From a virus, in IMG/VR virus record IMGVR_UViG_3300021197_001639, positions 1 through 44,403 of that record: DNA of 44,403 nt; one strand, 5' to 3'. Below are positions 8,501-44,063 of the stretch, one piece after another. The position numbers and the translations under genes were made by a program. Positions within the stretch are counted from its first letter, which is position 1; each line of letters opens with the position of its first letter. The notes under the pieces were generated by a model. It ran no database searches. It saw nothing but the letters and a program-made list of their open reading frames with translations, and was not told the origin of the DNA.

Positions 8501-8529
8501 TTGACGAACCATATCATTGGTGATATAAT
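8501..8529 (+). promoter_or_regulatory. Near-consensus sigma70 promoter P4, extended -10
   Basis: TTGACG at 8501-8506, a 17-bp spacer, TATAAT at 8524-8529 preceded by TGA. A perfect inverted repeat, ATATCA (8511-8516), TTGG, TGATAT (8521-8526), overlaps the spacer and the -10. It drives the operon that begins at 8557 and includes the sigma factor. Confidence 0.85.
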
Positions 8530-9993: not shown

Positions 9994-10012
9994 AGTAGAA
10001 CTAATTATTACC

Positions 10013-12347: not shown

Positions 12348-12348
12348 A

Positions 12349-19041: not shown

Positions 19042-19044
19042 TCA

Positions 19045-19422
19045 ATGCCTTTGTCGATAATATTTCCAATAGATATGAACAGTGATACGAACGCTGGTAT
19101 ACACGGTCACTCCAATGACGACACGACGAGCGCTATTAAGCAAAACATGAAAATGTTATTATTGACTCGAAAGGGTGAGTATGTGTTTGACCCAAACTTT
19201 GGAGTTGGACTACAAAATTACTTGTTCGAGAATGATGCGACAATTTCAATTCCTTTAATTGAAGGTGAAATACGAAGCCAATCTGCAACTTATATGCCTT
19301 ACGTTCGGATTGATGGAATAAACATTCAAATCGATTCAGCCAATCAAATATTGAGGACTCAAATAAGATTCAGATATAACGGCATAAGTATTCCAGAGCT
19401 TTTTGAGGTCGAGGTGTCTTAA
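19045..19422 (+). CDS. Baseplate wedge protein, GPW/gp25 family
   Basis: This 125-residue protein matches the gp25 family in length and motifs: a helix IKQNMKMLLLTRKGEYVFDPNFG, then GLQNYLFE, then a paired-strand C-terminus with IRFRY near 110. The L-L-T-x-K-G-E and D-P-x-F-G segments are the family hallmark. gp25 is a core wedge protein that joins the baseplate to the first sheath ring and triggers contraction, and it belongs to the conserved contractile-injection core. It starts three bases after the giant gene's stop with GAGG at 19033-19036, and is followed by gp6, as expected. Confidence 0.93.
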   Translation: MPLSIIFPIDMNSDTNAGIHGHSNDDTTSAIKQNMKMLLLTRKGEYVFDPNFGVGLQNYLFENDATISIPLIEGEIRSQSATYMPYVRIDGINIQIDSANQILRTQIRFRYNGISIPELFEVEVS

Positions 19423-19445: not shown

Positions 19446-19457
19446 AACTATTTAGTT
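19446..19457. promoter_or_regulatory. CTATTTAG site 1, palindromic, upstream of gp6
   Basis: AACTATTTAGTT is a 5-bp perfect inverted repeat around TT. CTATTTAG ends 19 bases before the gp6 ATG, in a 52-bp gap. The same core occurs in the other two sizeable gaps of the structural module. It is a candidate late-promoter -10 for the phage sigma factor or an operator. Confidence 0.45.
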
Positions 19458-19474
19458 GTTGATGAGGGTCCCAT

Positions 19475-21277
19475 ATGTCTAAACAAAAGAAAACGCCAAT
19501 TAAGTATACTAGTCGAGATTTCGACACAATCCGAGAGGATCTAATAGAACACGCAAAGCGATTTTATCCGAACGAGTGGAAAGACTTTTCGAAGTCAACC
19601 ATAAACTCTCTGTTGGTGGATTCTGTTGCTTATGTTGGAGATGTACTGTCTTACTATCTAGACTATCAAGCAAACGAATCGTTCTTAGATACAGCGATCG
19701 AATTCAACAATGTTAGAAAGCACGCTAGATCTCTAGGGTTTAAGTATGCTGGTGCTCCGAGCACAAATGGCACCATTGCTTTATTTTGTATGGTACCTGC
19801 GAATACTGATGGTACAGCTCCTGATTTTGACTACATGCCTCTTGTTCGCAAGGGAGCGTCATTCTCCAGCTCAAACGGAGGAAACTTTATTCTTACAGAA
19901 GACGTCAACTTTGGTGATGCCTCAAATGAAATTGTAGCTGCACGATTCGACAACACCACCGGTGGTACAACATTCTTTGCCGTCAAGGCACACGGACAAG
20001 TATCTTCTGGTGTATTCTCTAGGGCAACTGTTGATTTGACCAACTCTTCTTTCGAAAGATTTAAGAGAGTCCGAGTTGGTGGAGATAATGTTGTCGAGAT
20101 TATTGATGTAGTTGATACCGATGGTAACAAATATTATGAAGTGGACAATCTATCTCAAGAAGTAGTGTTCGAAGAGACCACAAACAGAAACGCAACGACA
20201 GAAGGCGTTAGAAGTATATTGAAGCCTTTCTCAGCTGCACGACGCTTTGTAGTCGAGCAAGATGATACCGGTACATACCTACAGTTTGGTTTCGGCTCAG
20301 AGTCATCAGACGAAGATGAATTGGTTGATCCAGCAAAAGTCGCAATACAAATGCACGGAAAGTCTTACGTTTCAAATCTAAGATTTGATCCATCAAAGCT
20401 TGTGGGTACAACAAAGCTCGGCATCTCTCCGTCTGGTACAACATTGACGATTATTTTAAAATCAAATGATTCCAATTCGGCAAATGCAGCGGTAAACACG
20501 ATAACCAATGTTTTAAATTCTAGCTTCAAGTTTCCAAATGAAATAGCTCTCGTTCAAACCAAAAAGAATTCTGTAATTGGCTCTCTCGAGATTACCAATG
20601 AAGAGCCGATCGTTGGCTCTACAGAGCAGATGACGACTGAAGAACTCAAGCAAAGAGCCAAAGGCTACTACACCACTCAATCTAGAGCTGTTACTCGACA
20701 AGACTATGAGTCAATGATTTACAACATGCCTAACAAATTTGGTATCATAAAGAGAGTGAGTGTAATAAATGACCCTTCTGCGACAAACAGGAGAGCAGCA
20801 ATCTATGTTATCTCCGAAGATGAGAATGGAAAGCTCACAACAGCTAGCTCATCATTGAAGACAAACATGAAAAACTGGATCTCTCAATATAAAGCGATGA
20901 ATGATGTTGTTGATATCTTCGACGCAAAGATTGTTAATTTTGGCGTTGACTTCAAAGTGGTTCTCGACACAAGATTCAAGGACATCAACATTGTCGGCAG
21001 ATGCAATACAGCAATTAGCGAATACTTTTCAAACCAGCTTTATATCGGAGAGCCAATATACATCACAAGGCTCTATTCCATACTGGGCAAGGTCGAAGGC
21101 GTAGCTGATGTGAAAACCGTGAGAGTCACACAGAAACGTGGAGCGAACTATTCTTCTACCAACATAAACTTTGACGAAGCAATGTCGGCAGACGGTACAT
21201 ACATCGTAACTCCGAAAAATGCTATTATGGAATTGAAATTTCCAAACCGAGACATTAAGGGGACTCTAATCCGATGA
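19475..21277 (+). CDS. Baseplate wedge protein, gp6 / baseplate J family
   Basis: This 600-residue protein opens with the T4 gp6 signature: KYTSRDFDTIREDL, then a run containing FSKSTINSLLVD, VAYVGDVLSYYLDYQANESFL and an A-R-x-L-G-F motif. The middle is beta-rich and the C-terminal part contains the baseplate J-like domain (EELKQRAKGYYTTQSRAVTRQDYE). T4 gp6 is about 660 aa and forms the ring that holds the wedges together. Shine-Dalgarno GAGGG lies at 19464-19468. It follows gp25 after a 52-bp gap with a CTATTTAG site, and overlaps the next gene by ATGA. Confidence 0.93.
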   Translation: MSKQKKTPIKYTSRDFDTIREDLIEHAKRFYPNEWKDFSKSTINSLLVDSVAYVGDVLSYYLDYQANESFLDTAIEFNNVRKHARSLGFKYAGAPSTNGTIALFCMVPANTDGTAPDFDYMPLVRKGASFSSSNGGNFILTEDVNFGDASNEIVAARFDNTTGGTTFFAVKAHGQVSSGVFSRATVDLTNSSFERFKRVRVGGDNVVEIIDVVDTDGNKYYEVDNLSQEVVFEETTNRNATTEGVRSILKPFSAARRFVVEQDDTGTYLQFGFGSESSDEDELVDPAKVAIQMHGKSYVSNLRFDPSKLVGTTKLGISPSGTTLTIILKSNDSNSANAAVNTITNVLNSSFKFPNEIALVQTKKNSVIGSLEITNEEPIVGSTEQMTTEELKQRAKGYYTTQSRAVTRQDYESMIYNMPNKFGIIKRVSVINDPSATNRRAAIYVISEDENGKLTTASSSLKTNMKNWISQYKAMNDVVDIFDAKIVNFGVDFKVVLDTRFKDINIVGRCNTAISEYFSNQLYIGEPIYITRLYSILGKVEGVADVKTVRVTQKRGANYSSTNINFDEAMSADGTYIVTPKNAIMELKFPNRDIKGTLIR

Positions 21278-23073
21278 TCAAACGATACTTTGCAACGAAA
21301 GACAACACAATCTCAAATGCTTTTGAGTCCAACTTGACAACCCGAGCAGTCTCTGCTAGTATGGGACAATCAGATATTCTCGAGGTCTTTAGTATCTACG
21401 GTCAAGTGTCTAGTTCTAGCGGTTTCTCAGCGGAAGAAGCCAGAGTTTTAATTGAATTTGATTTGGTACAAATCGCAGCAGATAAGGCTGCTGGAATCAT
21501 TCCTTCAAACGCAAAGTATTTCCTGAGACTATTCAATGCAGAACATGGGATGACTGTCCCAAGAGAATATAGTCTCGAAGCTCATGCGGTAGATGGCGGA
21601 TGGCAAGAAGGTTATGGCTTAGACATGGAAGACTACAGCGACCTGTCTTCCGGCTTTGGTTCAAACTGGACTGTAAAGTCTGGCTCCAATGCTTGGACTG
21701 CACCTGGCGGAGACGTTCATGCTGCATCTTCCACAACCCAATCTTTCAGCACAGGTCTGGAAGATTTAAATGTCGAGGTAACAACTCAAGTTGCTGAATG
21801 GCTTGATTCTCGATCAAACGACGGTTTCTTGGTCAAGTTACCTACTGCTTTGACTGGTCAACAAAGATCGTACTACACAAAGAAGTTCTTCGCTAGAGGA
21901 ACTGAGTTCTTTCACAAGCGACCCTGCCTAGAGGTTCGATGGGACTCAACAATACAAGACGACAGAATTAACTTCTACGCCTCTTCATCTCTCGCACCTG
22001 CTGCAGACAACATCAACACCCTATATCTATACAACTATCACCGTGGACAACTTGCTAACATTCCAGACGTTGGAACTGGGAAGATATACGTGGACTTATA
22101 CGAGACCCTAGGAGGTACAGCGTTGACCCAATGTGTAGACACTCCGGCAACCGGAGGATACGTTGAGACGGGAATTTACACCGCTAGCGTCTGCGTTAGT
22201 ACAACAGCATCAACTATCCACGATGTGTGGCGCAGTGCAAACGCCTCAACAGTATTGACTTTCGGACCAGGAATTCCATCCGATGGACCATTAGCAATAA
22301 CCTTCGGAGCACTTGGAGCCTTCACTCTCACTTTTAACAGTGCAGCAGGCTCATCCGATGCCGATATCGGATCTGATAAAGCAGCAACAATTGACCCATC
22401 AGATGAAGGAAGTTCAGCTGCTAATGCTCAAAAGGTAATGGTGCTGTTGAGAGACGGCGTTACCGGAGACGGAATTAAGAACGCTTATGATTTCGCATAT
22501 GATGACTCAAGTGTTAACGCTGAGACTGTGACGATTACTGCTAAAGAAAGAGGTTCGACTCACAACATCACTGTGACTGAATCATTGAGCAACATCTCTT
22601 CTACTGTGACAAATGGAAGTGATACCAACTACCACACAGGAAGCATCGATGTAAAAAGCGCGACTGCCTTATCATCTGCACCAGACAATCATCTTGTGGT
22701 ATCAGTGTCCAACAATCGCAACTTCCACTACACCGAGCAGACCAGCCGGTTTTACTTTTACATTAGACAGAAGAAATGGAGCCCTGCGATCTTTACGACC
22801 GCAACGACAACTCCAACAACTGAAGTGTTCGAGAACCTTCATTTTAAAATTATTAAGGTTGTTACAGATGAAACGATCTTTGACTACGACACCACAAACA
22901 ATTCGACTTTGCTCTCATACGACTCTAGAGGGAACTATTTTGATTTAGACATAGGTATGTTAGAGCCAAACTACACTTATCAAATTGAGTTGTCTCTTTA
23001 CAATGTCGCGACAAAGACGTATGAACAACTATCCTTCAAGCACAAGTTTAGAGTGGTGAACAATGAGTATTAA
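21274..23073 (+). CDS. Beta-rich virion protein with DNRLRE-like domain
   Basis: This 599-residue protein begins RYFATKDNTISNAFE and has an N-terminal domain (about 1-225) resembling DNRLRE folds: a regular Ser pattern, then VLIEFDL, FLRLFNA, and W-x-E-G-Y-G-L-D. A second, probably inserted beta domain at about 322-455 resembles the shuffled domain in the next gene, with TVTITAKERGSTHNITVT near its end. The C-terminal part returns to short beta strands and ends in a fibronectin-like fold. It is placed after gp6 with ATGA overlap, where T4 has gp7 and gp8, but I see no homology to those. A baseplate or fibre-attachment role is inferred. Confidence 0.85.
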   Translation: MIKRYFATKDNTISNAFESNLTTRAVSASMGQSDILEVFSIYGQVSSSSGFSAEEARVLIEFDLVQIAADKAAGIIPSNAKYFLRLFNAEHGMTVPREYSLEAHAVDGGWQEGYGLDMEDYSDLSSGFGSNWTVKSGSNAWTAPGGDVHAASSTTQSFSTGLEDLNVEVTTQVAEWLDSRSNDGFLVKLPTALTGQQRSYYTKKFFARGTEFFHKRPCLEVRWDSTIQDDRINFYASSSLAPAADNINTLYLYNYHRGQLANIPDVGTGKIYVDLYETLGGTALTQCVDTPATGGYVETGIYTASVCVSTTASTIHDVWRSANASTVLTFGPGIPSDGPLAITFGALGAFTLTFNSAAGSSDADIGSDKAATIDPSDEGSSAANAQKVMVLLRDGVTGDGIKNAYDFAYDDSSVNAETVTITAKERGSTHNITVTESLSNISSTVTNGSDTNYHTGSIDVKSATALSSAPDNHLVVSVSNNRNFHYTEQTSRFYFYIRQKKWSPAIFTTATTTPTTEVFENLHFKIIKVVTDETIFDYDTTNNSTLLSYDSRGNYFDLDIGMLEPNYTYQIELSLYNVATKTYEQLSFKHKFRVVNNEY

Positions 23074-26000
23074 AAATCTTTTCGGTAAAACTGTAACAAA
23101 TTACGAAGATGTAGCAAAAGACGTTGAATCAACAGACTTCATTGACGAAGTCGTTGCCAAGCGCGAGACATATCTTCCTCCAATCGATTTCTCTGATCCT
23201 GCGAACTTCGTATTCTACGGATCTGCAGAGCTTTACTACGAAGCCGCCATCAAGAGAATTTACGAAGACTACCCTTACGATGGGTCGAAAGCTGAACAGA
23301 TTGACTTTGAAGAGAAGTCGTCATTCCTAGAGCGCTGGTTGTTCGAGAACAAATACCCAAAAACTACCGGACATGTTGAGCTTGGCTCCACCACAAACAT
23401 AACGGGAAAGACAGTTAATTACTCGACAACCTCAACACCAGAATATATTGAAGTTCACGGTGGACTACACATCAGCTCGAATGCTACAAACTTAGATGAG
23501 CATCTTGAGTACTCAGCTCGCTATGACGAAGCCAATAATAGAACGCAAAACTTTAATTGCGACTTTGTGAACAAAGGGATCACAATAGAATTCTGGATGA
23601 AGAAGGCTTCTTATGATGCATCTAATGAGCCAAAAGAAGTTATATTGGATCTTTGGAATGGTGTAGCTCGTGGGACAACCGGATACTCACGAGTTTTCCT
23701 TGAGACGCTTGACAACAGTGGTGCGAAAGAGATGGCCCTAACGATTGCTTCAGGCAGCACATCTGCTACAACTACTTTTACAATGGGGACAACTGAGACC
23801 AACTGGAATCATTATGCACTTTCTGTATTCGAGGGATCCTCAATTGGAACAGTTAGGTTTTACACAAACGGTGCAGAGACTGCATCGACCACTCTAGCTT
23901 CTCCTTTTACAACGCTACCTGGTCGCCTAGATGGCTTCATCGGAGCAATGCAGACGGAAATAGGCTCCGGGGATGGAGCAGCGAATGGCGGTAAACTATC
24001 CGCTCAACTTGACGAGTTCCGTTTCTGGAAGACTCGAAGAACTTCGAGACAAATCAAACTAAACTGGTTCCGCGAGATTGGCGGTGGAGCCAACACTGAC
24101 GACAACACTTCGGATCTTGGCGTATACCTAAAGTTCAACGAAGGTATTACCGGAACAAATTCAATTGACTCAACCGTCCTTGATTACTCTGGTCGTTTGG
24201 CTAATGGTACATGGACGGGCTATCCTGGTTCCTCAGCAAGATCGACAGATTCTGCAATGACCTTGTCTGGCTATGCTGAAGCATCAACTCCAATCGTCTA
24301 CTCAAGCCACCCAAGCGTTGTATCTCTCGAAGCAGAAATGACTCTTAGTGGTTCAGATTATGACGCTGGTCGAGGTCAAGCATTCTATAGGTCACTTCCA
24401 AACTGGCTTGTCGAAGAGGATCAAGAAGAAGGCGACGAGAACCTAAGAAAGATATCTCACATCTTGTCAAGTTACATGGATACCTTGAGAGTCCAAATCG
24501 ACTCACTCAGCAAATTACAAGACAAGCAGTACGTTTCTGCTAGCTATAAGGCTGCTCCATTCGCATCGGAACTTCTAACAAACAAAGGCTTTACAACAAG
24601 CGAGATGTTTCTGTCTTCAGAAGTATTCGAATCTTTCTCCAGTATTGACTACGGCTCTGGACAGTTCGACCTCAATATTGACGAGATAAAGAATTTAATA
24701 TATACAAACATCTACAACAACCTCGAGAACATCTACAACACAAAGGGAACCGAGAAGTCAATCCGCAACCTTATCCGATGCTTTGGTATCGACGATGAAT
24801 TAATCAAACTGAACCAGTACACAGACGGAGGAGTACAATATCTTGGAGACAAGTATCGTTCAACATCTGTTAAAAAGAAATACGTAAATCTCAACAATGT
24901 GAACCATCTCTCAGGGACCATGTACCAAAGTGGCTCTCTAACGTTCATTTCTGGGTCCTCCTCTGGCTCTGTAGCGGCTTTTACAATGGAAGCCGACATA
25001 GTAGTGCCCCACAAGCCGAAACTCGGCGAGAGTGGATATTTCGCAACCCCATTCCTATCTGCATCTGTAATGGGCTTCCACGAAGCGATTCCATACTTCT
25101 CGGCAAACTACACATGGTGGGCAACGGAAACTGCAACAGCCGCCGCCACAGGTCAAATAACCCTGAACAATACCGCCGCTGTTTCAACATGGGAAGGCGA
25201 AACAATAACTTTGACTGATGCGCGCGGACTAATAAGAACTTATGAATTTACAGCAACAGGAACCGGAACTAGTGGTAACCTATTGTCCAATGGCAATGTG
25301 GAAGTAACAATTGCCGCTTTATGGCTAACCACCAGGAACCTCCGCGACGCAATCAACAATATAACAAATGGTCACGGAAATACAATAACAGCAACATGGA
25401 CATCTGCATCTCCAAACTACAACATTGGTTTGACACAGGTTTTTTCCGGAGCAACCGGAAACACTACCATAACTTCAACATTTTCTACATCAATAATTAC
25501 TCTCACACACTTCACTGGTGGTACGTCTACACTCGCAGAGGCTCGAGATCTTCAAGTATATCTTGTTCGAGACTCTCTCGAATCCGATAATGCGAAGTTC
25601 GTCGTAAAGAACCAAACCGAAACAATCTATGCAGAATCAGATCTCGTGTACGACATTTACGATAACGATCACTACAACGTTGCCTTGAGAATTAAGCCTC
25701 AAACCTATCCGTACGCTGGTAACGTCACAAATGCAACACCAAGCTACGATATTGAGCTTTACGCGGTGTCGCACAACTTTGACGAATTGAAAGAAGAGAT
25801 CCTCATTACAACCACAGTAAACAATGCAACGGGATCTGCATACATGCAAGCACCAAAGCGAATCTACGCTGCATCTCATTACGAAAACTTCACAGGCTCA
25901 CTCCTGCAAAGAACCGACCTAGAGTTTGGACGTGTATCTGCATGGCTTGATTACTTGCCTAACTCTTCAATTCAAGAGCACAACAAAGACGTAATGAACT

Positions 26001-29000
26001 ATGGTAATCACAAATCTATTGACGGATCAACAGCATTTGCAATCGACGATATAGAAATACCAACAATGGACTTGTCAATCCTGAACTGGGACTTCGACAC
26101 AGTCACAACCTCGGACTCTTCCGGAGAGTTCGTAATTGAAGATACCACATCTGGATCTTCCGACACAATCTACGGTTGGGTGGACAACCTCATCCGTCGT
26201 GAACATGACGGTAAAGGCGACAACTTCCCAACGTCATCAACAGCATTTTTGGAAAACGAGTTCCTCTATGCTAGCAAGAAGCAGTTGCCCGAGACCTCAT
26301 TCAACACACACAACATCTATATCAAAGGCGAACAGGAGATCAACTTTGGCGAGGATGACGATGTAAGCGATAACCTATTCGTTCTTGAGAAGTCTCCCGC
26401 TGCTATTGTATCCGAGGAGATGCTAAAGCTATTCTCGACAACTCAAGAGTTCTCGAACTTGTTTGGACGTCACGTAGATCGATATCGAATCGAATACAAA
26501 GACATTGCGAAAGCAAGACAATTGTTCCACCAGAGAGTTGATACGGGTCTTGACTTTGACAAGTTCTTTACCTACTTCAAATGGATCGACCAATCAATCT
26601 CTGAGATGATCAATCAATTGATACCAGCATCGGTTAACTTTGCCGGTGGAGTTGTTGACGTTATCGAGCCGCACATTCTCGAGAGAGACAAGTACCAACG
26701 ACAAATCGGACTCCTTCAGACAGTTACGTCGACAGAAGCGTCTATCCGAGGTGTTCAAGAATTGAACTACAACTGGAGAATCGGACATGCGCCTGTACCA
26801 GGTCCAATCGACAACAGCAAGCTTACCAACTCCTTGTGGAGAATGGAGAGACAAGAGAGAACAGGCATAACAACATCTCCAGCAATCGCCGGTGTACAAG
26901 CCGAAAACGTAAGACAGGTCATTGTTCGACAAACAGATCAAGAATTCACAAACCCAATAAAACTATCAGGTTCGACTGCTGCAACAGCATTGATTATCAC
27001 CGTTCCTGAAGGGGCATTGAATGATACAAAAGACTTTACACTAACAGACGCAGCTGGTATTACGACAACATATAACATTTCTACAGGTTTAGCAATCAGT
27101 AACAATACTGATGCCTATATTCCCGGAGGTCAAGACGGAAAAGGACCGGCAGGTACAATCACAATTGGAATGCTTGGTGCAACCCCGGCAACAGATGTTA
27201 GAGATCAAATTATTACAAGAATTAATGCTGGTACCTCTATAGGATTCACAGCCACCACCTCAGGCGATAATGTGCTTGTGACTCAAAACACTCTAGGGTC
27301 AATAGGTAACACAGTAATCACACAACCAGACGGAGCTACTGGCCTAACCATACCAACTGAATTCACAGGTGGCTTTGGTGATGCCCCGGGCGTTTATAAC
27401 GGAAGAACTTATGCAACTCGAAGATTCTCGAGACCTTATCGTGCGAAAATAGAATTCGCCGACACAATCCACGGTGGAACAAACTACGTTAAAATCAAAG
27501 ACCGTGATTTGTTGAGATCTGGTATTGGTCTGCACTCCGCCATGGGTTCATCGGGTGCGCCATCAAACATTATCACAATTGGTGCCGGAACTGGATTTGG
27601 CTTGAACGTCGAAGAGGTTTCAAAAACCCAAGACCAGCTAGGACCATCAGAAAAAATAAGATATGATGGCTTCGGTATCTTCGGTAAGTTCACGGAACTT
27701 AACGGAGTAGGTTATGGACCTTTGTCTTCCGATGATGATTATACTTCCAGAAGAAAGATTTGCAACGTCTTCTTAGGCAACATAGTCTCAAGTAGCGTTG
27801 CTACCGGATACAACGAAGTAGTTAGTGCAAGCTTTAAGCCCGGTGTCAACATCGTCAATCTGCACTCGGATACGACCGATATCTCAAATGAGATCGCAAT
27901 CCAAGGACCTTTCACTGAAAGATGGGTCGGAGGTCACCAACATAGACACACGGCTCTCAATAGCGTTGGGAAACTTAGAAATCACACCAGTACCGTTCCT
28001 AATGACTTGGATAGCGAGTTCTCGCGACCAGAAGGGTATCGACTGCTTTTGGGAAAAAATCCGCTACTTGCACCAAGTGGATCAGACAGAGATAAAATTG
28101 ATGGTAACCCCGATGATGGAGCACTCGGTTTCACATCACCAGACTACGGTATCGGTAATGATGGTAATTTCCCAGATGAACAAAGAATGTATTCAATCTT
28201 CTATCGTGAAGAGCGAGCAAAGCGTCCGGTTAATATCAAGAACATTCAAACAACAACGTCCTCCGTATATCACGGAAACTACCAACATGAGTATGAGGTA
28301 CTCTCAACATTCGGAGACCAAGGTTACTTCTTAAAGAGAGCAGGGAATCTTTTACCAGAAGCTATATCATTGACTTTGCCTGAAACTACAAACTATGCGA
28401 CCTTGATGGCTCAGAAAGCCAGCACACAAGGTAACATCGCTGTAAACGAACCGGGCGGAGCGATAAGCAATAGATTCACTTCCGGAGCTTTCGCAACCAT
28501 GACGATCACTACAGTCACCGAAGCCACTCTTACTTCGTCTCCTACTAGTCATGATCGCAGATTTACTCTAACGGATGGTGATGGTGTAACCACAACATTT
28601 AAGATTAATGTGAATTCTTCCTATACTGGTAACTCTGCTGCATACTCTCCTGGCGGCGAGACTGATTTAAAAATTCTTGGACTAACTACCCGTACTGAAA
28701 TTAGGGATACAATTATAGTTAAAATCAATGCCGGAACAAACATTGGCTACACAGCTAGTCCTGTTGGCGACGATGTTCTTGTGACTCAAAATGTTGTTGG
28801 TACCATTGGAAATACTAATATTACATTCCCAAATGGGTCTATTCATCTAGGTTTCTCTGGTACTAATACATTCCAAGGCGGATCTTTCGGAGTCAACGAC
28901 CAACAAACTCAAGACAGAGAGAATACTGGATCTGCTCACGTAATCAGAACTCAATTCTCAGCACCCGGTGGTCCCGAAATTAATTCACCTGCGTATCTGG

Positions 29001-29932: not shown

Positions 29933-29964
29933 CGGCTACATTAGAAAAAAATGCTAAGATGACA
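29906..29964 (+). repeat. 15-bp direct repeat at the 3' end of the 2289-aa gene
   Basis: AATGCTAAGATGACA occurs at 29906-29920 inside the last codons (Asn-Ala-Lys-Met-Thr) and again at 29950-29964 in the following gap. The second copy sits in an open frame reading ATLEKNAKMTSS and two stops, offset by 44 bp and so out of frame with the gene. Confidence 0.85.
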
Positions 29965-29973
29965 AGTTCGTAA

Positions 29974-29989
29974 TAAACTATTTAGTTTA
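29974..29989. promoter_or_regulatory. CTATTTAG site 2, palindromic, upstream of the 1449-aa gene
   Basis: TAAACTA-TT-TAGTTTA is a 7-bp perfect inverted repeat around TT. The CTATTTAG core (29978-29985) ends 18 bases before the ATG at 30004, almost the same distance as at site 1. Confidence 0.45.
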
Positions 29990-30003
29990 AAAAAGGGTGC
30001 TAA

Positions 30004-33000
30004 ATGACAACTTACAAAGATTTTCTCGGAATAAATATCTGCATTTATGATCCGATCCTAGGAGACAGTGGTGCGATTGGAGGCAATTACCTCGGATATA
30101 GCCCAACCTCTTCACTTAAATATAACGACAACATTGGCGTCGGTAATGTTTCAAAGTTAACGGCCCATGCTGCACCGCAAACTTTGGTGCTATTGAACCT
30201 ACATCGCAATGGTCCATTTGGGTATCCAATGTGGAAACAAACTCGAGTCTCTCAAAATCACTTGTCGAGAGCTCATCGATTAACAAACACATTTACGTAC
30301 GTGCAAGAACCCGGCGCAAAGATCGGAGACAAACAAGCAAGATATGGAGATATTGTAAATCTCACAGAACCAGTAATCGCTCAAAACTTACCAATTTCAT
30401 TGGTCGGAGAGGTTGCCGTCTATAATGAAGCACTGGGTGTATTCGAAAAGAAACCCGTAGAGATTAAGACAGCATTCAATAACGAGACGGAATTCTTTGC
30501 GAACACAAAAGCAAATGACCACTTCAACACCATCTTAGACACAGATGATAACTACGAAGCATTAATTGAGATGTACTTGGATGGAGGTCTTGACGACGAA
30601 GGTTCGCTGCTCGACTCATTCTCTCTTTTAACTTATCGTCAAACGATATGGCCGAAAGTAGAGCGCTCATTCTTGGACCAAACCCGCTCACGAAAGTTCT
30701 ATGTAAATACATTCTGGCGAGATAACCGAGAAGATCGAGAGAAAAATAACGTTGCTACCGAGTTCGGATTCACAGCACCCTCTCAATCAATGTGGCCCTT
30801 AGACGCAGCAAAAGATTTCAGAACAAGAACAGTGCCGATTGGTGACAATACTCCAGTCGTCTTTCATCGTATCGGTGGTAGCGCAGTATCTACTCAAAAC
30901 ACGAATGGCGGAGAGGGCATCTTGCAAAATTCTTACTCCCATGTTTATGGTAGATCGTATCTTATTACCGACGCCGACACTCCGGTTACAGGTGTTGCTG
31001 CTTTCTTAAACGATCCGGAGGAGATTTTGTCGGCCTCTGTTAGCTATGCATTTAGACACACCCTTAAATCAACATTTTCAAATTACAATCCATCATTTCC
31101 AACCTTCAATGCTGACGGCTTGGTTATACAAAAACGATACCAAGGTTACCTTGAGGGTGCTGACTTTTCGCTATTGACCCTAGATGGGTCTGCTTCTATG
31201 ATGGTGACCTCTTCTTTATTCGAGGGCGTAGCAAATTGGGATGCTCCTGCTCAAGCAGGCAAGACACCATTTTACGACTCATACGAAGATTATGCTCAAG
31301 AAATAAAAAGAAGTGGAAAGGGTTACTCGATTGTTCCTGAGTTTAGAATAAGCTCGCACGTTGATACATACGCCTCAAAAGGTGTGACCGAGGAGTTGAA
31401 AGAAATCTTTGAATTGTCTGGTGGACTATCGCAGAACACAACGACAGAAAATGAAAGCACTTTTTACAAAGTATTATCAAACTCAGACTTCCTCAAACAT
31501 TTTGATTTGATCAAGAAAGATCATGAAGGCTTCGCAGATGAAAAAATATTGACTCTTAAATGCAAAGCTATCAAAAAGTTCTTACCATATGAGGGTTTTT
31601 ATCCCGCACAAAGAACAGTTCAACTAGGCGAACAATTCGCAAGAAGCTATAAGAATCACGTTGTGTCTAGGAGGGGCTCCCTTGCCACCACTGTCGATGC
31701 CGGCTCAGTTAAGTTGCAACCATTAATGACTCCATTGTTCGCCCCCGGGATCCTTTTCAATACAATCAAATCAGGTGTTGGAGTTGACTTTCCTCTGTTC
31801 ACAGCAGATTCTATACCTTACGCACTGTCTTCATCTAACAATAATTACAATTCCGATTGGGAATATTCCGGAAATCCCGTTACTTCCTCTGCTGGACCTC
31901 ATCAGAATTATTATTGGACTGGTGGTGGTCATTTAGCAACCGGCACCATCGACTCTGCATACGATACAAGGATTCCGTTTGAAGCTCTTGTTGAGCCTGA
32001 GGAGTACCTTGCGAATCTAAGACTGATCCTGCAAGAGCCTCACCCTTTCGGACTTCCTTTTACGGGAGCAGTTTCTGGAGCTGCTGCATCAACCGGTGAT
32101 CAATTCTTGGACTATCACACCGAATGGGATGGTCGCGGCGATGGGTTGTACAAGAAGATGGCCAACAATCTCTTGGCGGAAATACCAGAACTATTCTTGG
32201 AGAACACTTCAATGACGACTATAGCATCATTGGAAGATGGAGATCCAACATTTGGAAATGCAGTGGCTGGAACCTATTACGCAATGAGGATCAAAATGAA
32301 AAGGTCTCGAGTGGAAACAAACCAACCCCTTGGTGGGAGAAAAGGTGTGTTGGTCGATCCACCGCAAGACGTTGTGACCTATCAAGATCGTGATGCTCTC
32401 CACTCGATTACTGGCGCTGTAGCTAATATTCCAAATAGATTTTCTACGAAAGAATCTCTGACTATGTATTCTCGACCATCTGCTTTTGGACCAGCCACAT
32501 ATGGCGGCAATGGCTTTGGGACATATAGAGACATTCAATTCAGAGAATGCGGTTCATGGTGGGGAACCAACTATCCCTATACAGCTCCCTATTACCATGG
32601 AGAAGCATGGTGCGATTTGATTTTCCACGCCACAGAATCTAAAAAATATACTTTAGACGATATTTTGGAATCAGTAAAAGAATACCCTTATTACACGAGA
32701 CACTGGTGGAATGGAACCAATGACGCGCTTAGAGATTTGACTGGCTATAACGAGTCATCAGCCTCAACACGCCCAATCTTCGCTGGTACCGCACCCGGAC
32801 TAGCGAATAACGGTTGGTCAGATGGTAAATATGAAACTTACTCCGGCAGCGCGTGGAGTGATTTGATTTCTGCTTCTATACCGGGCACCGGCACCATCAC
32901 CCCATGGCCAAGAGACTTCACAGCCACCCCGCAATTCACTCCCGGCGTCGCGGCAGCGGATGCAATTGACTTTGCTGTGGGAAATTGGGGAACACACACT

Positions 33001-34353
33001 ACAACCAATGGCCAAGGTCTTGTTGACGATGCTGGTACATTCAGATATCGTGCTAGACCAAATGTTAGCGCTGGTACCATTGCATCTAGTGACCAGTTGA
33101 TTCAACATCCGTTTTACATCAACTATAACGCAATGCAGTTGGACTCTAGTGTTAACTTGTTTGGAAAAGGAACGGTTCGAAAAATATTCAATCAGAACAC
33201 ACAACAGGTCGCGGAAGTTGCCTCTGCCGAAACAACCAGAGGAAAGACTCGATGGATTATTCAGCCTAAATTTGAAACACCGATTCTTAACTTTAAGAAA
33301 TATGAAGACCTCACTGGGAACGGAGTAACAATGCCTCTATATGCATCAGAATCGGTCCCTCGTGGAATGTGGCATCAATATGGCGATATCCCAGAGGATG
33401 CAGATACTGGCGTATTCCTCCAAGTTACAGATATTCCAGACTCTTGGCTACGTGGCGCACTTTGCATGGCTAAGAGTCAAACAAAGAAGATCAAATCACT
33501 AGCAGACTTGGTTGGATTCTCTAAAGAACAAGTACGCCTCGGTGAAATTGGATCAAAAAAAGAAGTATCAGAAGCAGTTGTAGCTGTTCCATTTATCGAA
33601 CAAGGCGCGACTCGCAAGTTCTTCTCGATCCCAAGAGCGGACATAGACTCTTCAATCGAAGCTTCTCGTCGAGAAATAGATGGAAACTTCCCAGCAGGTG
33701 GACCAGCAAAAGCCGGAGACACCGTCTACAAGATGGTTAAGAACATGCAGAAGTATGTCTTCCCACCGTCAATGGACTTTGTCCGATATAGTGAGGTTGA
33801 CCCGTTTGCTATGTACATCTTTGAGTTCAAACACACCTTCTCAAAGCAAGACCTTGCCGACATGTGGCAAAACTTACCGCCCGAACTTGGGAGAACTTTC
33901 GAAGAAGCAGAGGCATCAATCTCTCATGAGTTGTTATCAGCCGAACTTCTTGGCGATGGAGCTGTTATTAAGAACGGCGTCCTAGATGAGAATGCCGAAG
34001 GCAAAGGTATCCCATCAAACATCCAATGGATGGTGTTCAAAGTCAAGAAAAGAGCAAAGACAAATTATTTCGATAAGATTGTTGCGAAGAAAGGAACGAC
34101 ACAAGACACATCCGAAGTGCAGTTGGAAGGAGTAACAAACTCAGCGACAAGTAAAATGGATAAAGATATTACCTACAATTGGCCATATGATTTCTTTTCA
34201 CTCGTAGAACTAGTTAAGATTGACGCCGAAATCTCATTCGCAAACATTGAGAATGACGATAAAGGACAGAAGTCTATCAAGAAGGTGGAGTCGAAAAAGA
34301 CTCGTGATCCTTCGATGATTAACAAGGCGAGAGGAAAGGGACGAATTGAATGA
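30004..34353 (+). CDS. Large virion structural protein, 1449 aa
   Basis: A ribosome binding site AAGGG at 29993-29997 precedes the start. The N-terminal part contains an aromatic, beta-rich segment (LNLHRNGPFGYPMWKQ near 65-80) that I associate with a conserved structural family of large marine phages, without known function. The body is of mixed beta and loop character with many Tyr, Trp and Gly. The last 150 residues become helical and Lys-rich. There is no enzyme motif, transmembrane segment or signal peptide. It has its own upstream CTATTTAG site and overlaps the next gene by ATGA. A tail or baseplate periphery role is inferred from position only. Confidence 0.85.
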   Translation: MTTYKDFLGINICIYDPILGDSGAIGGNYLGYSPTSSLKYNDNIGVGNVSKLTAHAAPQTLVLLNLHRNGPFGYPMWKQTRVSQNHLSRAHRLTNTFTYVQEPGAKIGDKQARYGDIVNLTEPVIAQNLPISLVGEVAVYNEALGVFEKKPVEIKTAFNNETEFFANTKANDHFNTILDTDDNYEALIEMYLDGGLDDEGSLLDSFSLLTYRQTIWPKVERSFLDQTRSRKFYVNTFWRDNREDREKNNVATEFGFTAPSQSMWPLDAAKDFRTRTVPIGDNTPVVFHRIGGSAVSTQNTNGGEGILQNSYSHVYGRSYLITDADTPVTGVAAFLNDPEEILSASVSYAFRHTLKSTFSNYNPSFPTFNADGLVIQKRYQGYLEGADFSLLTLDGSASMMVTSSLFEGVANWDAPAQAGKTPFYDSYEDYAQEIKRSGKGYSIVPEFRISSHVDTYASKGVTEELKEIFELSGGLSQNTTTENESTFYKVLSNSDFLKHFDLIKKDHEGFADEKILTLKCKAIKKFLPYEGFYPAQRTVQLGEQFARSYKNHVVSRRGSLATTVDAGSVKLQPLMTPLFAPGILFNTIKSGVGVDFPLFTADSIPYALSSSNNNYNSDWEYSGNPVTSSAGPHQNYYWTGGGHLATGTIDSAYDTRIPFEALVEPEEYLANLRLILQEPHPFGLPFTGAVSGAAASTGDQFLDYHTEWDGRGDGLYKKMANNLLAEIPELFLENTSMTTIASLEDGDPTFGNAVAGTYYAMRIKMKRSRVETNQPLGGRKGVLVDPPQDVVTYQDRDALHSITGAVANIPNRFSTKESLTMYSRPSAFGPATYGGNGFGTYRDIQFRECGSWWGTNYPYTAPYYHGEAWCDLIFHATESKKYTLDDILESVKEYPYYTRHWWNGTNDALRDLTGYNESSASTRPIFAGTAPGLANNGWSDGKYETYSGSAWSDLISASIPGTGTITPWPRDFTATPQFTPGVAAADAIDFAVGNWGTHTTTNGQGLVDDAGTFRYRARPNVSAGTIASSDQLIQHPFYINYNAMQLDSSVNLFGKGTVRKIFNQNTQQVAEVASAETTRGKTRWIIQPKFETPILNFKKYEDLTGNGVTMPLYASESVPRGMWHQYGDIPEDADTGVFLQVTDIPDSWLRGALCMAKSQTKKIKSLADLVGFSKEQVRLGEIGSKKEVSEAVVAVPFIEQGATRKFFSIPRADIDSSIEASRREIDGNFPAGGPAKAGDTVYKMVKNMQKYVFPPSMDFVRYSEVDPFAMYIFEFKHTFSKQDLADMWQNLPPELGRTFEEAEASISHELLSAELLGDGAVIKNGVLDENAEGKGIPSNIQWMVFKVKKRAKTNYFDKIVAKKGTTQDTSEVQLEGVTNSATSKMDKDITYNWPYDFFSLVELVKIDAEISFANIENDDKGQKSIKKVESKKTRDPSMINKARGKGRIE

Positions 34354-35303
34354 CGTTTTTTAACAAAAAAGAAGATGTTCTTAAAATTGAATTGACCCCA
34401 TATGGGCGTTCGCTTCTTTCCAATGGGAAGTTGATGCCCAAGTATTATGCATTCTTTGATGACGATATTATCTATGACCTCCAGTATGGTGGAGACACAG
34501 AGAATCAAGATATTACCAAGGAGAGGATATTAGGTAGCACTCCAAGTCTGAGGCCTCAAAGAGATCTGGTGTCTCCGGAACTTCAACTATCCTCATTCGA
34601 GCGTGATGAAGATTCCTCACGACCTTATTCAAAGATCGCAATGAACTTCCTTACCGAACCCCTCGGAACTTCCGACGGTACGTTTGAAGAAGCCCCAAGT
34701 TGGAACGTATCTTTTCTCCTCGGCGAGATCTCAAGCAGCTCTGCTTTTATCGCTGTATCCGGATCCGATACGACCCACACGAAGAGAATTCCTCAGATTG
34801 AAACGACTCTCGAGTACACCATGGAGATTAGAAATCGTAGAAACGACTCTCCCGTGAGAGGGCAAGAGGTATCTCCTAATGTACCAGTCTCAGAAGTGTT
34901 CCCAGATGGTACATATATTAACCTGATTGACGAGCAGATTTTGTGTAAGATTCTCGAAGAAAAAGGATTTTTGCAGAAAGACGGCCTAGAAATGGAGGTC
35001 TTTCTTTACGAAGAAAACGAAGAAACTCCGAAGAAACTTAAGTTCGCACCCCGCGAGAAGACCGTAATTGACGGTATGATTGTGGAGGACAGTGTAGCAG
35101 CGATTAACCTGACTCCTGATTATGTAGAATATTGGCTAGACATTGAAGTTGACTCCGAGATTCCAGATTCCGAAATTTGCAAAGGCGTTCAGAAACTCAA
35201 AGCCGAAGATATCCTCGTCGATGTAGACGTTGTATGCCCGGACCTCGAAGGTGTAGACTTCGACATTTACAGAACAAGAGTAACCGATGTGGAGGATTGC
35301 TAA
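34350..35303 (+). CDS. Virion protein, LT-x-x-GR-x-LL N-domain (paralogue 1)
   Basis: This 317-residue protein starts MTFFNKKEDVLKIELTPYGRSLLSNG and continues with YYAFFDDDIIYDLQY. The pattern L-T-x-x-G-R-x-L-L-x-x-G, a variable link, then F/Y-A-x-x-D-D/E and Y-x-L recurs at the start of the gene at 40218. The remainder is acidic and beta-rich. It overlaps its neighbours by ATGA on the left and TAATG on the right, so translation is linked. The family is familiar from large aquatic phages but I know of no function. A structural role follows from the context. Confidence 0.82.
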   Translation: MTFFNKKEDVLKIELTPYGRSLLSNGKLMPKYYAFFDDDIIYDLQYGGDTENQDITKERILGSTPSLRPQRDLVSPELQLSSFERDEDSSRPYSKIAMNFLTEPLGTSDGTFEEAPSWNVSFLLGEISSSSAFIAVSGSDTTHTKRIPQIETTLEYTMEIRNRRNDSPVRGQEVSPNVPVSEVFPDGTYINLIDEQILCKILEEKGFLQKDGLEMEVFLYEENEETPKKLKFAPREKTVIDGMIVEDSVAAINLTPDYVEYWLDIEVDSEIPDSEICKGVQKLKAEDILVDVDVVCPDLEGVDFDIYRTRVTDVEDC

Positions 35304-38200
35304 TGTCTAATGGACTTGTAGGTCTCGAGAACCTCCCGAATACGTATATTGAAACAATTACAGTGGACGATAACAACCCAGCTACCTCAAAGATCACTAT
35401 TGAGTTGTCAATGAATGATGTTGAGAAAAACGGATTCTTTGTATGGTCTGATGATGATCTGATAATGGACTACATGAAGGTCGCAGTCATCGCCACATCA
35501 AACCAACAATTGATCAGTGGAATAACATCGGGCCAATTCAGTCCTCTGCCGCACATTATTCGTAGCGGTCCATTCATAATGGGCACTACCATAGTGGAGA
35601 TTCCTGCGAAGAATTTCATGAAAATGAAATCAAACCAACCTAATTCTAGAAGGTTCTACAAAAAAGAGTCCCTTATCATTCCCGAGGATGTACTAGGAAT
35701 GACTTTGTTTGTCTTGGCCTATGTAGACGCTCAAGAACTATCAAACGCGCTTAGGATAGTACTGACGGGCCCCCTAAAGCAATATTACGGCCCGGTCAAG
35801 TCTGAGACTGTTTTTGCCGGAGGACAGATAGAGCAAACATCATATCTTTACAAGGAAGCTGGTGGTTCCATATGGACCGGCCCCATCCACGAACATGCCG
35901 GAAAGTTTATGGGAGGCTCATATCACACTTCTGAACCACACCCACTACTCACAAGAGAGTCTGTGCTGAACACCAAGATAATCGATAAGCGCTCAGGTGC
36001 GTTACAATTAAGACCAGAGATAAACTTCAAGAACAAGCCAATGTTCTCCGAGTTGTCAACGTCCTACACGAACGAAGCTGATCTGATCGGAATGTTCTCC
36101 CTAGATATGAGAACCCTAATACTCACAAAGACAAAGCACGGTCGCAAGATGTTCAACGTATCAAAGGACTTGTTCGAGTCATTTGCTAGAGACGTCTACA
36201 TGAATTCATTTGAAATACGAAGACAACAAGTTAGGCTCAAAGTCGCAAGCACAAAACTTGGTACGAGAAAGCATGGGCAGAAGCTTATAGGCTCATATAA
36301 CACGGTTGCTGCATCAATAGAGAGAACTGGCCAATTAGTTGCTAGAGACAATCTATCGCAAATATTCATAACCCCAGATCGCTTAATTAAGTCATATCAA
36401 TTCACAGACGAAGAGATGACCGAGAGAACACGCGGCGAGTTTCGCTACGAAATAGCTATTTCATTTTCCGATACAACCGATGCGTTCTTAAGAAATATCT
36501 TGAGTCAAATGGAGAGAAACATCTCAGACCTGAAAGCTAAGCAAGAGTTCTTGTTCAGACCTCAACGATATGATCGAGATAACAATAGGCTTGTGAGCGG
36601 AACCCCCGTTCCCGACATATTCTCATCATCTATTGAGAATTACTATCAAAACCTATCAGTCCTCTTCAACATAGACGATGAAGAAAAGCAGGAAATGATT
36701 ACCAACAAGAAGAAGGCCTTCAAGTCTGATAACTACACGAACAACGACGCACTTAAATTCATAGCGGACTACACAGACCTGTTGATCAAATTTAGAAGAC
36801 GCTTCAACATTGAGAAGAAAACAGAGCGGCTGACCGGCGCTGTAAAGCCAAGCAGTGCGATAGCGCCCGGAATGATTTACGTTAACCACGTCTTTAAAGA
36901 GACAGTGAAGTTCGATAACGTTGTTGCATCATATGACTTTTTGGGGGTCCAATCGAACAAGTCGCTAGTTTCTTTTAGTAAAGAAGAATACATGAACAGA
37001 GCAAACATCGAGACAAGCAGGTTTTTTGATACATCTCGCTCAACGATGTCTGAAGACTTAGCAGACCTAGAGTCAGAAGATATGATCGCAATTCAAGATC
37101 TCGATACGGCAAAGATGTCATTTTTGTCTCCACTTAGTTTTAAGTTTAAGTCCGAGAAAAAGGATTTGACGTCCTTGCAAAATTTGGATTCAAATGGGAT
37201 ATCGAACAATTTTATATCTTACATAACCGAGAAGCAATCGGATCCAAGATTCGCATCGGCACCACCACCTCGTCAAAAAAACATTCAACCAAAAAGATCA
37301 AAAGCGAAAAACAGAAGATCATTTAAAAAGAAGAGAATTGGAAGAACAAAGCTGAACTTCAAGAGAGCACCTTTTAAGATCAACAATCTAAAAACCGAAG
37401 AGTATCTTGAGGTATCAAAATTCCTTGGGAACAATTCTGAAATGGTCGACATTGAATCAAAGCTTGACCAACCAGTTCTTTCGCCACAAACAGGTCAAAT
37501 CCAAACAAAACTAACGGCAACTCAAGGGCTTAGCATTAAGCGCGAGAAGATATCATATGACCTACAGTCAAAGAACAATATATTTGAGAAGTTTAAATCG
37601 TCTCCAAAATTCGATAGAAAAAAACTTAAAATGATGCCTGTCTCAATTAAGGCCTTGATCAACTCGAGATCAACAGCCGCAAAGAACAACGTTTTGCAAT
37701 CGGAGTCGGATATCCTCAAGGACTCTGAAACAAAAATATCGACAGAAATGATATTCCATACATCTCAAAAGGTGGAGTACCTCTCGGGTTTTGAGATGGA
37801 TATAAACGGAACACCGGACGTATCACAGCCGATATGGATAGAGGTAGAGCCGACAGCTCTCAATAACAACAAGCGACTCATGTGTCGACTTAGATATGCC
37901 GAAATACCTGAACTAGACATTAAGCCAGCTAAAGAGCTTAAGTTGCTAGCCCAAAATTCCATATTTGTAATCTCAGATGAAAACATCAACACCTTGCTGA
38001 TTGCACCGCCCGCAGAGCTAGAGTTGGACGTACAACAAGACATGTCGGAAACAGAAGAGATAGTGTTTGCTTCGTCAAATTATGTTAAGCAAAATCCGGA
38101 TAGGAAATCAAATATGATTCTATCGAAACCACAGAGAACAACACAAACAAATATACAACCAACCGGAGGAAGAGCAAGTGCCCCAATTAGTCGTTACTGA
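35303..38200 (+). CDS. Large virion structural protein, 965 aa
   Basis: The frame is open from 35177, but its first 42 codons give an Arg-rich sequence that overlaps the preceding gene. The ATG at 35303 has GGAGG at 35291-35295 and a TAATG overlap, so it is chosen. The N-terminal half is beta-rich with a helical part around 380-480. Residues about 656-690 form a very basic stretch dominated by Lys and Arg. The C-terminal part is beta-rich again. No enzyme motif was found. It overlaps the following gene by 23 bp. Its role in the tail or baseplate periphery is unknown. Confidence 0.85.
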   Translation: MSNGLVGLENLPNTYIETITVDDNNPATSKITIELSMNDVEKNGFFVWSDDDLIMDYMKVAVIATSNQQLISGITSGQFSPLPHIIRSGPFIMGTTIVEIPAKNFMKMKSNQPNSRRFYKKESLIIPEDVLGMTLFVLAYVDAQELSNALRIVLTGPLKQYYGPVKSETVFAGGQIEQTSYLYKEAGGSIWTGPIHEHAGKFMGGSYHTSEPHPLLTRESVLNTKIIDKRSGALQLRPEINFKNKPMFSELSTSYTNEADLIGMFSLDMRTLILTKTKHGRKMFNVSKDLFESFARDVYMNSFEIRRQQVRLKVASTKLGTRKHGQKLIGSYNTVAASIERTGQLVARDNLSQIFITPDRLIKSYQFTDEEMTERTRGEFRYEIAISFSDTTDAFLRNILSQMERNISDLKAKQEFLFRPQRYDRDNNRLVSGTPVPDIFSSSIENYYQNLSVLFNIDDEEKQEMITNKKKAFKSDNYTNNDALKFIADYTDLLIKFRRRFNIEKKTERLTGAVKPSSAIAPGMIYVNHVFKETVKFDNVVASYDFLGVQSNKSLVSFSKEEYMNRANIETSRFFDTSRSTMSEDLADLESEDMIAIQDLDTAKMSFLSPLSFKFKSEKKDLTSLQNLDSNGISNNFISYITEKQSDPRFASAPPPRQKNIQPKRSKAKNRRSFKKKRIGRTKLNFKRAPFKINNLKTEEYLEVSKFLGNNSEMVDIESKLDQPVLSPQTGQIQTKLTATQGLSIKREKISYDLQSKNNIFEKFKSSPKFDRKKLKMMPVSIKALINSRSTAAKNNVLQSESDILKDSETKISTEMIFHTSQKVEYLSGFEMDINGTPDVSQPIWIEVEPTALNNNKRLMCRLRYAEIPELDIKPAKELKLLAQNSIFVISDENINTLLIAPPAELELDVQQDMSETEEIVFASSNYVKQNPDRKSNMILSKPQRTTQTNIQPTGGRASAPISRY

Positions 38201-40175
38201 AAACCAAAGAGATACGGGCCTAATTTCATCCGGTGGTGGAACAGTTGTTGCTACAACTAGCTTCACCACAAGTCGTATCGAAGCACCCGCCCTCCAGCCA
38301 AAATATAACGTCGAGTTTATTAGCAGCGAGATGAAGCAGAATGAAGAGTTGCTTTACGAAGTCGCAACAATCAAAGTTAGACCTGCTGCAATACAAGGAA
38401 ATTTCTTTTCTTCAGTTATCTCCGACTTTAGTCCCGGTGAGAAATCTAATCACTTTTTTAAATTACCTGCAATGGTCGATTTAGGAGCGACACAAACAGA
38501 GAGTTACTCGACAGCAAAGTCTCAAGCATCTTACTCTTTTGAAACTGTGTTCAATTATATCTCCGAGGAATACGATAAGTTGCAAGTTGGGATATCTGAA
38601 TACAATCTATATGCGCCAATCGACAAAGTATCGAAACAAGATTTTTTAAGTATCGCAAAGGGTAGCTCCAACATCATAAACTTTGGTCGAGGCAATCAAA
38701 TGAAAAACTATGTGATTGATCAAGGAGCCAAACAGGGAAGTGCCGAATCTCCGTATTACAATCATCTAAGAATCAATCAACGAATCGACAACGGCCTATC
38801 CCATTTCGCAGTCAAACTTGGAATTTTTGACGATCTCTTACAGGATTATCTTTTCGGCGAAAAGAACATGGGTTCTTTCGACGTTCAACAGAATAGAGAA
38901 GTATCGGAAGGGTCTCAAGTTCCATTGTATAATCTATCGTCTTTCTTAAATACCGATCGAGAACTGGACATTGATAATTTCTTTACCCTGAGAGAGTCTG
39001 TGCGGCCCTCTAGGATGTCTTTGGACCTTCGCAAGCACTTGATGAAGGGTTTCCTCAAAGACGCCTCTAAGACCAAATTTCGGACTTACAAAGAGGTTCA
39101 CAATAACTCCGAGGCACACAAAGAGCTGTTTTGTTATTCTGTTGCCAAGCACGACGGAAATATTCTCGACAGCACACTAATCCAAACACTGTATGCACCA
39201 GCAATGAGAGAGTCCACACCTGTTATCGACACTCAAGTTAAGTACGGAAAGTCATACTCCTACAAAGTCGTAGGGCACTACATGATCGTTGGAAACAGAT
39301 ATACATATCAAATCAAATCAGAGTCTCGAGACCCTAGCAATGAATATGTCGAGGTTGAAGTTACCAACAGACCCAACGTAGTTATCATTCCATTTGACGT
39401 CCTTACAAAGCAAATCAATGTAGTCCAAATGCCGCCTGTATATCCTCAGGTGTCTTTCAAGACCAAGAACGACTCCGGCAAAATGATATCGATGTATCTG
39501 TCTCCGACAAAAACCGAGATGAAATCGCCATTTGTATCAATCACTAGAGAAGATGGATTGCAACTTGAATCGATGTATCGCTTACCAAATGCTCGAGACC
39601 TTGCTGGAAACTTTAGATTCAAGACATATGGAGACCAAGGTCTCTATGAAATTTTTCGACTTGAGGACGCTCCAAAGTCATACTCGGACTTCCGAGATGC
39701 GAAAATTGGAGAAATAAGCATGCCGTTTAACACAACGGATGCAATCTTTAAAGATCTTGTCGCACCGAATAAAAAGTATTATTACACGTTTAGATCGGTC
39801 AATCAGAAGGGAATGGTATCTAACCCTACGATGGTTTATGAAACTACCTTGCTAGTTGATGCTGATGACTCAAAAATAGTCACAGACACGTACCACTTTC
39901 CAAAACCTCGAGATAAGGAATCGTCTCTTGGTTTCAGGAAACTACTTAGAATTACCCCCGCTGTTGAACATATCTTATTCAACGAGTCCCAGTCAGCTCT
40001 GTTTGGAAAAAGAAGCTTGGTTGGTACATTGGACAACTTGAATCTCGGAATAAAGCAAAAAGCAGTTTGGGGTCGAAAATTTAAAATTCGAATAAAATCG
40101 AAAACTTCGGGAAAGATGATAGACATTATTTTGAACGTTGACTTAACAAAAAACAAAACAGAGGAAGAATTCTAA
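38178..40175 (+). CDS. Virion structural protein with fibronectin-like C-terminal part
   Basis: The GTG at 38178 has GGAGG at 38165-38169 with an 8-base spacer and begins MPQLVVTENQRDTG. The 665-residue protein has a mixed N-terminal region and, from about 395 on, repeated beta strands such as KKYYYTFRSVNQKGMVSNPTM, which resembles the end of a fibronectin type III fold. The C-terminal 50 residues are basic (KFKIRIKSKTSGK). There are no catalytic motifs. The 23-bp overlap with the preceding gene indicates linked expression of the two products, perhaps partners in one structure. That is inference. Confidence 0.82.
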   Translation: MPQLVVTENQRDTGLISSGGGTVVATTSFTTSRIEAPALQPKYNVEFISSEMKQNEELLYEVATIKVRPAAIQGNFFSSVISDFSPGEKSNHFFKLPAMVDLGATQTESYSTAKSQASYSFETVFNYISEEYDKLQVGISEYNLYAPIDKVSKQDFLSIAKGSSNIINFGRGNQMKNYVIDQGAKQGSAESPYYNHLRINQRIDNGLSHFAVKLGIFDDLLQDYLFGEKNMGSFDVQQNREVSEGSQVPLYNLSSFLNTDRELDIDNFFTLRESVRPSRMSLDLRKHLMKGFLKDASKTKFRTYKEVHNNSEAHKELFCYSVAKHDGNILDSTLIQTLYAPAMRESTPVIDTQVKYGKSYSYKVVGHYMIVGNRYTYQIKSESRDPSNEYVEVEVTNRPNVVIIPFDVLTKQINVVQMPPVYPQVSFKTKNDSGKMISMYLSPTKTEMKSPFVSITREDGLQLESMYRLPNARDLAGNFRFKTYGDQGLYEIFRLEDAPKSYSDFRDAKIGEISMPFNTTDAIFKDLVAPNKKYYYTFRSVNQKGMVSNPTMVYETTLLVDADDSKIVTDTYHFPKPRDKESSLGFRKLLRITPAVEHILFNESQSALFGKRSLVGTLDNLNLGIKQKAVWGRKFKIRIKSKTSGKMIDIILNVDLTKNKTEEEF

Positions 40176-40180
40176 TAAAT

Positions 40181-40194
40181 AAGCTATTTAGGTT
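40181..40194. promoter_or_regulatory. CTATTTAG site 3, upstream of the 314-aa gene
   Basis: AAGCTATTTAGGTT contains CTATTTAG at 40184-40191, 26 bases before the ATG at 40218. Here the outer arms are imperfect (a G faces a G). The preceding bases read AATAAATA, which resembles the T4 late promoter element TATAAATA. Confidence 0.45.
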
Positions 40195-41162: not shown

Positions 41163-41175
41163 TAAGGGGAAACAA

Positions 41176-42261: not shown

Positions 42262-42274
42262 TCGGAGGGCTTCT

Positions 42275-44038: not shown

Positions 44039-44063
44039 TTACTTGGTCACAGGAGATACCAAA

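Follow-up and report, generated by a model that had tools for sequence, protein, structure and literature searches.

In the late system of T4 (gp55/gp33/gp45, Straboviridae), late structural genes are closely preceded by a lone -10-like element, TATAAATA, that has no -35 (PMC2988020, PMC7892883). Residue Y97 of the sigma factor gp55 stacks on adenine -12, N13 and H95 contact position -9, and T99 contacts position -8 (PMC7892883). The late consensus of the Aeromonas phage Aeh1 has diverged within the T4 family (PMC2988020). Far-T4 phages are reported to be common in both fresh water and the sea, and T4 core transcription-regulation genes were not detected in Far-T4 contigs (PMC4360716). No late promoter was described in the papers we found on Rhodothermus phage RM378, Flavobacterium phage immuto or Microcystis phage Mel-JY01. 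Among the matches listed in our search of the open-licence literature, none linked CTATTTA or TATTTA to late genes or to promoters, and none reported a Far-T4 sigma factor.

We analyzed a window of 44,403 bases, the complete IMG/VR virus record IMGVR_UViG_3300021197_001639, in which all genes lie on one strand. The genes identified encode PhoH, an exonuclease, glycosyltransferases, gp25-like and gp6-like baseplate proteins, and a RuvC-like resolvase. Early/middle units start at predicted sigma-70 promoters at 3450, 4168, 5610 and 8501. The promoter at 3450-3478 (TTGACA-17-TATAAT with TG, 12 of 12, + strand) represents the early/middle contrast class, and the one at 8501-8529 (TTGACG-17-TATAAT with TG, 11 of 12, + strand) belongs to the unit 8557-9993, which ends in a sigma-factor gene. 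Two of these regions have further structure. Before gene 4216 (4168-4215), the -10 of a middle-type promoter lies within the inverted repeat CCGTGT...ACACGG, which overlaps part of the Shine-Dalgarno sequence and is possibly an operator or a leader hairpin; CGTGTTA and ACGGAGG are enriched in the gaps of relatives. A hairpin (CCCCAA...TTGGGG) at 5610-5660, with a T-rich run behind it, has in its loop the -10 of a perfect TTGACA-17-TATAAT; the arrangement looks like that of a promoter inside a terminator. The tail region contains two giant genes, at 12349-19041 (2230 aa) and 23063-29932 (2289 aa). The first 600 residues of the 2289-aa product had no tblastn match in 160 related loci (the best 80 from each of two scans that found at least 595), and a distant relative of this gene is present in the long relative G001.

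The initial annotation had reported CTATTTAG at three places in the structural region, 18-26 bases before start codons. Exactly three copies occur in the window, all on the + strand, at 19448-19455, 29978-29985 and 40184-40191, and the measured distances to the start codons at 19475, 30004 and 40218 are 19, 18 and 26 bases. The description of this region as otherwise almost gap-free was also accurate: each sizeable gap of the structural module (52, 71 and 42 bases) holds one copy, and all other gaps between 10013 and 43435 are at most 13 bases long. No good sigma-70 -35/-10 pair was found with the three sites, as the annotation had stated. G002, the closest long relative, keeps each of them at the orthologous position, upstream of genes 59262, 69293 and 79398.

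Chance or A+T composition was one alternative to weigh. The window-wide count that the annotation had asked for is compatible with chance (3 against 1.21 expected; at least three copies in 13 of 100 shuffles) and is unremarkable by itself; it is the placement in the gaps that stands out. Among 20,000 dinucleotide shuffles of the three gaps, an 8-mer common to all of them arose once and CTATTTAG itself never did. Every comparative test described below also speaks against chance, which is refuted by the orthologue test and which we regard as negligible.

We scanned for relatives with the sigma gene and with gene 41176, found at least 595 in each scan and kept the best 80 of each (160 related IMG/VR loci). 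Together with the window, and with genes called by a simple home-made caller, these gave 573 unique intergenic gaps. CTATTTA was the most enriched 7-mer in the gaps (143 occurrences against 12.3 expected, z 36.6, in relatives that are not independent of each other), and the enrichment 15-30 bases before structural genes that the initial annotation had proposed to test was borne out. CTTGACA, from sigma-70 promoters, ranked second. CTATTTA ran along the gene direction in 136 gaps and was reversed in 9. The two classes of element rarely share a gap: CTA[TAC]TTA occurred alone in 185 gaps, a sigma-70 pair alone in 36 and both together in only 5. The sequence logo reads A-C-T-A-(T 69, A 23, C 9%)-T-T-A and little else, and the end of the motif lies mostly 16-23 nt from the start codon (173 start-proximal sites). 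A strong -35 signal was absent both from 199 sites and from the 31 sites with non-coding flanks. G is enriched about 20 bases upstream of the element and may come from the coding ends of preceding genes; we claim no -35 because this enrichment stays weak in the 31 sites with non-coding flanks. T is depleted at offset 13 from the C of the element in a small sample, which would suit a purine start point. In the small sample of 31 sites, A or T is most favored around -26, -15 and -5 relative to the C, at spacings of roughly one helical turn, a pattern that may be due to chance. The raw strand bias of the word (89 forward, 19 reverse) was dropped as proof, as the reversed word has stops in two frames, and intergenic counts alone were therefore used. 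An EM motif search mostly settled on sigma-70-type elements or noise and was not used.

The element marks genes that head operons rather than genes at large. CTA[TAC]TTA occurred in 71 of 73 unique upstreams of the 40218 orthologues (4.6 in shuffled sequences), with CTATTTA, CTAATTA or CTACTTA before the ATG in nearly all of them at protein identities of 37 to 92%. The corresponding counts were 33 of 39 for 19475 (1.25 shuffled) and 17 of 70 for 42275 (2.5 shuffled). It was absent from the unique upstreams of the in-operon gene 41176, the next after 40218 (0 of 76), and from those of other in-operon or middle genes: the sigma gene (0 of 67), 8557 (0 of 58) and RuvC (0 of 68). In four long relatives (127-191 kb), CTATTTA was start-proximal 13, 18, 21 and 15 times, with about one expected in each. 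The genes behind it include those for tail sheath, tail tube and baseplate proteins, the first gene of the capsid operon and the 40218 orthologue, and a few elements precede genes of unassigned role outside the structural module. Sigma-70 promoters in these genomes precede the genes for primase, helicase and polymerase as well as numerous small ORFs. The same pipeline applied to T4 as a control recovered TATAAATA in 12 upstreams against 0.9 expected.

The initial annotation had offered two readings of the sites, a late-promoter -10 or an operator. An operator would be a dyad close to late genes to which a repressor or an activator binds. Sites 1 and 2 are indeed inverted repeats around TT (AACTA-TT-TAGTT), as it had noted, and this symmetry is what an operator would have in its favor. 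In the relatives, however, only (A)CTA[T/A/C]TTA is conserved: the palindrome and the final G of CTATTTAG are not kept, and the middle base varies. The operator is disfavored because the dyad is not conserved; the asymmetric use of CTANTTA (136 forward against 9 reversed gaps) and the absence of any separate visible promoter at the three gaps also count against it. We consider an operator very unlikely. The late-promoter -10 is supported by the enrichment, the placement at operon heads and the presence of a gp55-family sigma factor.

Our analyses predict late promoter -10-like elements (CTATTTA, + strand) at 19448-19454, heading the baseplate operon 19475-29932; at 29978-29984, heading the operon 30004-40175 and kept in the closest long relative before the orthologue at 69293; and at 40184-40190, heading the operon 40218-43435. 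The first and third are also predicted from the upstreams of orthologues. The operons begin, respectively, with a gp6-like baseplate wedge gene (19475-21277; phrog_6, E 9.6e-28), a 1449-aa gene without a PHROG match that is presumed structural by position (30004-34353), and a 314-aa gene assigned to the tail region by position and homology to immuto gp107 (40218-41162). The variant CTAATTA at 10001-10007 (+ strand), separated by 5 bases from the start codon (ATG) of gene 10013, is a probable late promoter of 10013-19422. A second CTAATTA at 44035-44041 (+ strand), before ORF 44064, is kept in the single orthologue found (L084) and is possibly a further late promoter.

Gene 10013 (10013-10297) directly follows the sigma gene, and its orthologue accompanies sigma directly after it in 80 of 80 loci (the best 80 of at least 595). 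The 94-aa product is small, helical and acidic-looking and is possibly a transcription partner. A gene of similar size with a matching ...NDEQLIKM-like stretch directly follows sigma in immuto and Mel-JY01. Of 79 orthologues of gene 10013, 41 have CTANTTA 4-8 bases upstream of the ATG, and 35 of these 41 have no Shine-Dalgarno-like sequence. The arrangement of bases here suggests that the late mRNA of gene 10013 is leaderless. This short spacing leaves no room for leader function, and it bears on the alternative that the element acts at the RNA level, as a processing site or translation enhancer. The fixed distance to the start codon would fit such a signal, but in-operon genes that are translated equally lack it (0 of 76), and the element takes the place of sigma-70 promoters at gaps. 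An RNA-level role is thus extremely unlikely in our view.

The putative reader is encoded at 9301-9993 (+ strand, 230 aa). All 35 aligned sigma members matched phrog_234 (late sigma), 7 of them weakly matched Pfam Sigma70_r2, and the window protein had no significant Pfam match in its own right. When its profile was compared with a 19-member gp55 alignment, hhalign gave E-values of 1.9e-6 and 7.9e-7, in a match that is colinear from the N-terminus through region 2. Comparisons of the profile with single gp55 or RM378 sequences were uninformative; alignments were needed on both sides. The AlphaFold model is all-helical and of moderate quality (pLDDT 77, pTM 0.44), with mainly sigma factors as its nearest PDB folds, at weak E-values of which none was below 0.001. 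A PDB sequence search with the profile found nothing. We interpret the protein as a remote gp55-family sigma with a region 2 homologous to that of gp55. Of the -10 pocket residues of gp55, Y97 aligns with Tyr94, which is invariant in both this clade and the immuto clade. The counterparts of H95 and T99 are Phe92 and Ser96, and the immuto clade does not keep Ser96. With the TA of CTATTTA set at -13/-12, its place in TATAAATA, the A's at -12 and -8 would be retained and the A at -9 would become T, where the contact residue has changed. The likelier correspondence to T4 would be the TA step of TATAAATA. The ATAAA-like bases upstream of sites 2 and 3, on which the initial annotation had based a likeness to T4, are only part of a loosely A-rich upstream flank, and that likeness is not supported.

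We examined a second clade, around immuto (80 loci, 508 gaps). There, CTATTTAT occurred in 54 gaps against 9 reversed, although many may be one orthologous site. It was upstream 14 times in immuto itself (1.0 expected), as were ATATTTAT 20 times in Mel-JY01 (3.1 expected) and TTATTTAA 27 times in RM378 (1.2 expected). The immuto elements stand before portal, tape measure, sheath and tube. Its early genes carry a distinct element, TATATTTAGGTATC, similar to the host promoter of Bacteroidetes, which makes the TATTTA core by itself less diagnostic in immuto. In the early region of immuto (NC_055915, L207), the genes share the repeated element TATATTTAGGTATCAATAATTAA, and GTTGC lies some 20 bases upstream of it. 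Homologues of the window sigma are encoded by immuto, Mel-JY01 and LR756508 (484 kb), the last of which had no clear motif in the 50 kb examined. The window has no capsid, terminase or portal genes, and its placement was tested on G001. The bit scores of these three proteins were 244/245/155 to RM378 against 110/178/118 to T4, and they were higher still to immuto and Mel-JY01. We place the window with the Far-T4 phages because G001 is closer to RM378, immuto and Mel-JY01 than to T4 in these protein scores.

The late promoters might be read by another factor, such as a host alternative sigma or a phage activator, instead of the 9301-9993 protein. The pairing of element and sigma comes only from genome context, and their co-occurrence is not an independent test, as the relatives were fetched by shared genes. 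However, phages that infect Flavobacterium, Microcystis and Rhodothermus share the element although the sigma factors of these hosts are different; the homologous sigma is present in immuto and Mel-JY01; and the window protein belongs to a late-sigma family. We find another reader unlikely. It is highly probable that CTA(T/A/C)TTA forms the -10-like core of phage late promoters with the gp55-like sigma as its reader, and we regard the three CTATTTAG sites as very probably genuine switches, most likely late promoters read by this sigma. That the element is a promoter, that the sigma reads it and that its timing is late are all inferred from sequence and genome context.

In the mechanism that we propose, sigma-70 promoters of the host type would drive the early and middle genes, among them the sigma gene in the unit from 8557. 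Its product, the gp55-like sigma, would then bind the host RNA polymerase and would open and read the element without a -35. Each late operon (19475-29932, 30004-40175, 40218-43435 and probably 10013-19422) would have its transcript start a few bases upstream of its ribosome-binding site. Late units would begin at 10001 (as CTAATTA), 19448, 29978, 40184 and perhaps 44035. With a late-promoter word and its probable sigma, late operons could be marked in hundreds of uncultured genomes, and early genes could be sorted from late ones without cultures. Diverged pairs of sigma and element (TATAAATA with gp55, CTATTTA with the window sigma) could help show how region 2 reads the -10. This reading is testable in immuto, Mel-JY01 and RM378, which have named hosts.

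The locus resembles the T4 late system in its lone -10-like element close before late structural genes, which has no -35, and in encoding a sigma whose region 2 is gp55-like. It differs in the element itself, CTA(T/A/C)TTA instead of TATAAATA, and in a sigma of 230 aa, against 185 aa for gp55, with a different C-terminal part. The hydrophobic-acidic clamp-binding C-terminus of gp55 was not seen: the sigma lacks an LDFLYE-like end, and this clade has a conserved end of its own, DWDxGxI. The gp33 model (PF16805) gave nothing above its cut-off in 15 records, where a diverged analogue is possible; in the T4 control it matched at E 6e-28. The gp45 models (PF02916, PF09116) exceeded theirs in no relative. 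T4 was positive for PF09116 and is thus a working control for two of these three models. Mel-JY01 has annotated clamp-loader genes, and a clamp too diverged for the gp45 models may exist. Our analyses suggest a system that works like that of T4, with a sigma in the gp55 family, and that is probably not a member of the full clamp-coupled system. Aeh1 differs in another way, with -13/-12 changed (a/gC for TA); the element described here probably retains the TA and has T's in place of the A's behind it. The closest likeness is to the Far-T4 phages RM378, immuto and Mel-JY01, in capsid, terminase and portal and in a TATTTA core before structural genes, although the annotated sigma of RM378 is of a more ordinary two-domain type. 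With this core in all three, CTATTTA looks like a Far-T4 late promoter. More tentatively, and with a chance that we put below even, all Far-T4 phages may have an ancestral TATTTA-core late promoter and a gp55-family sigma that works without gp33 or a replication-clamp activator. If so, the clamp-coupled late switch of T4 would be a more elaborate form of something simpler. The element is most likely a late promoter whose sequence departs from that of the textbook T4 late promoter.
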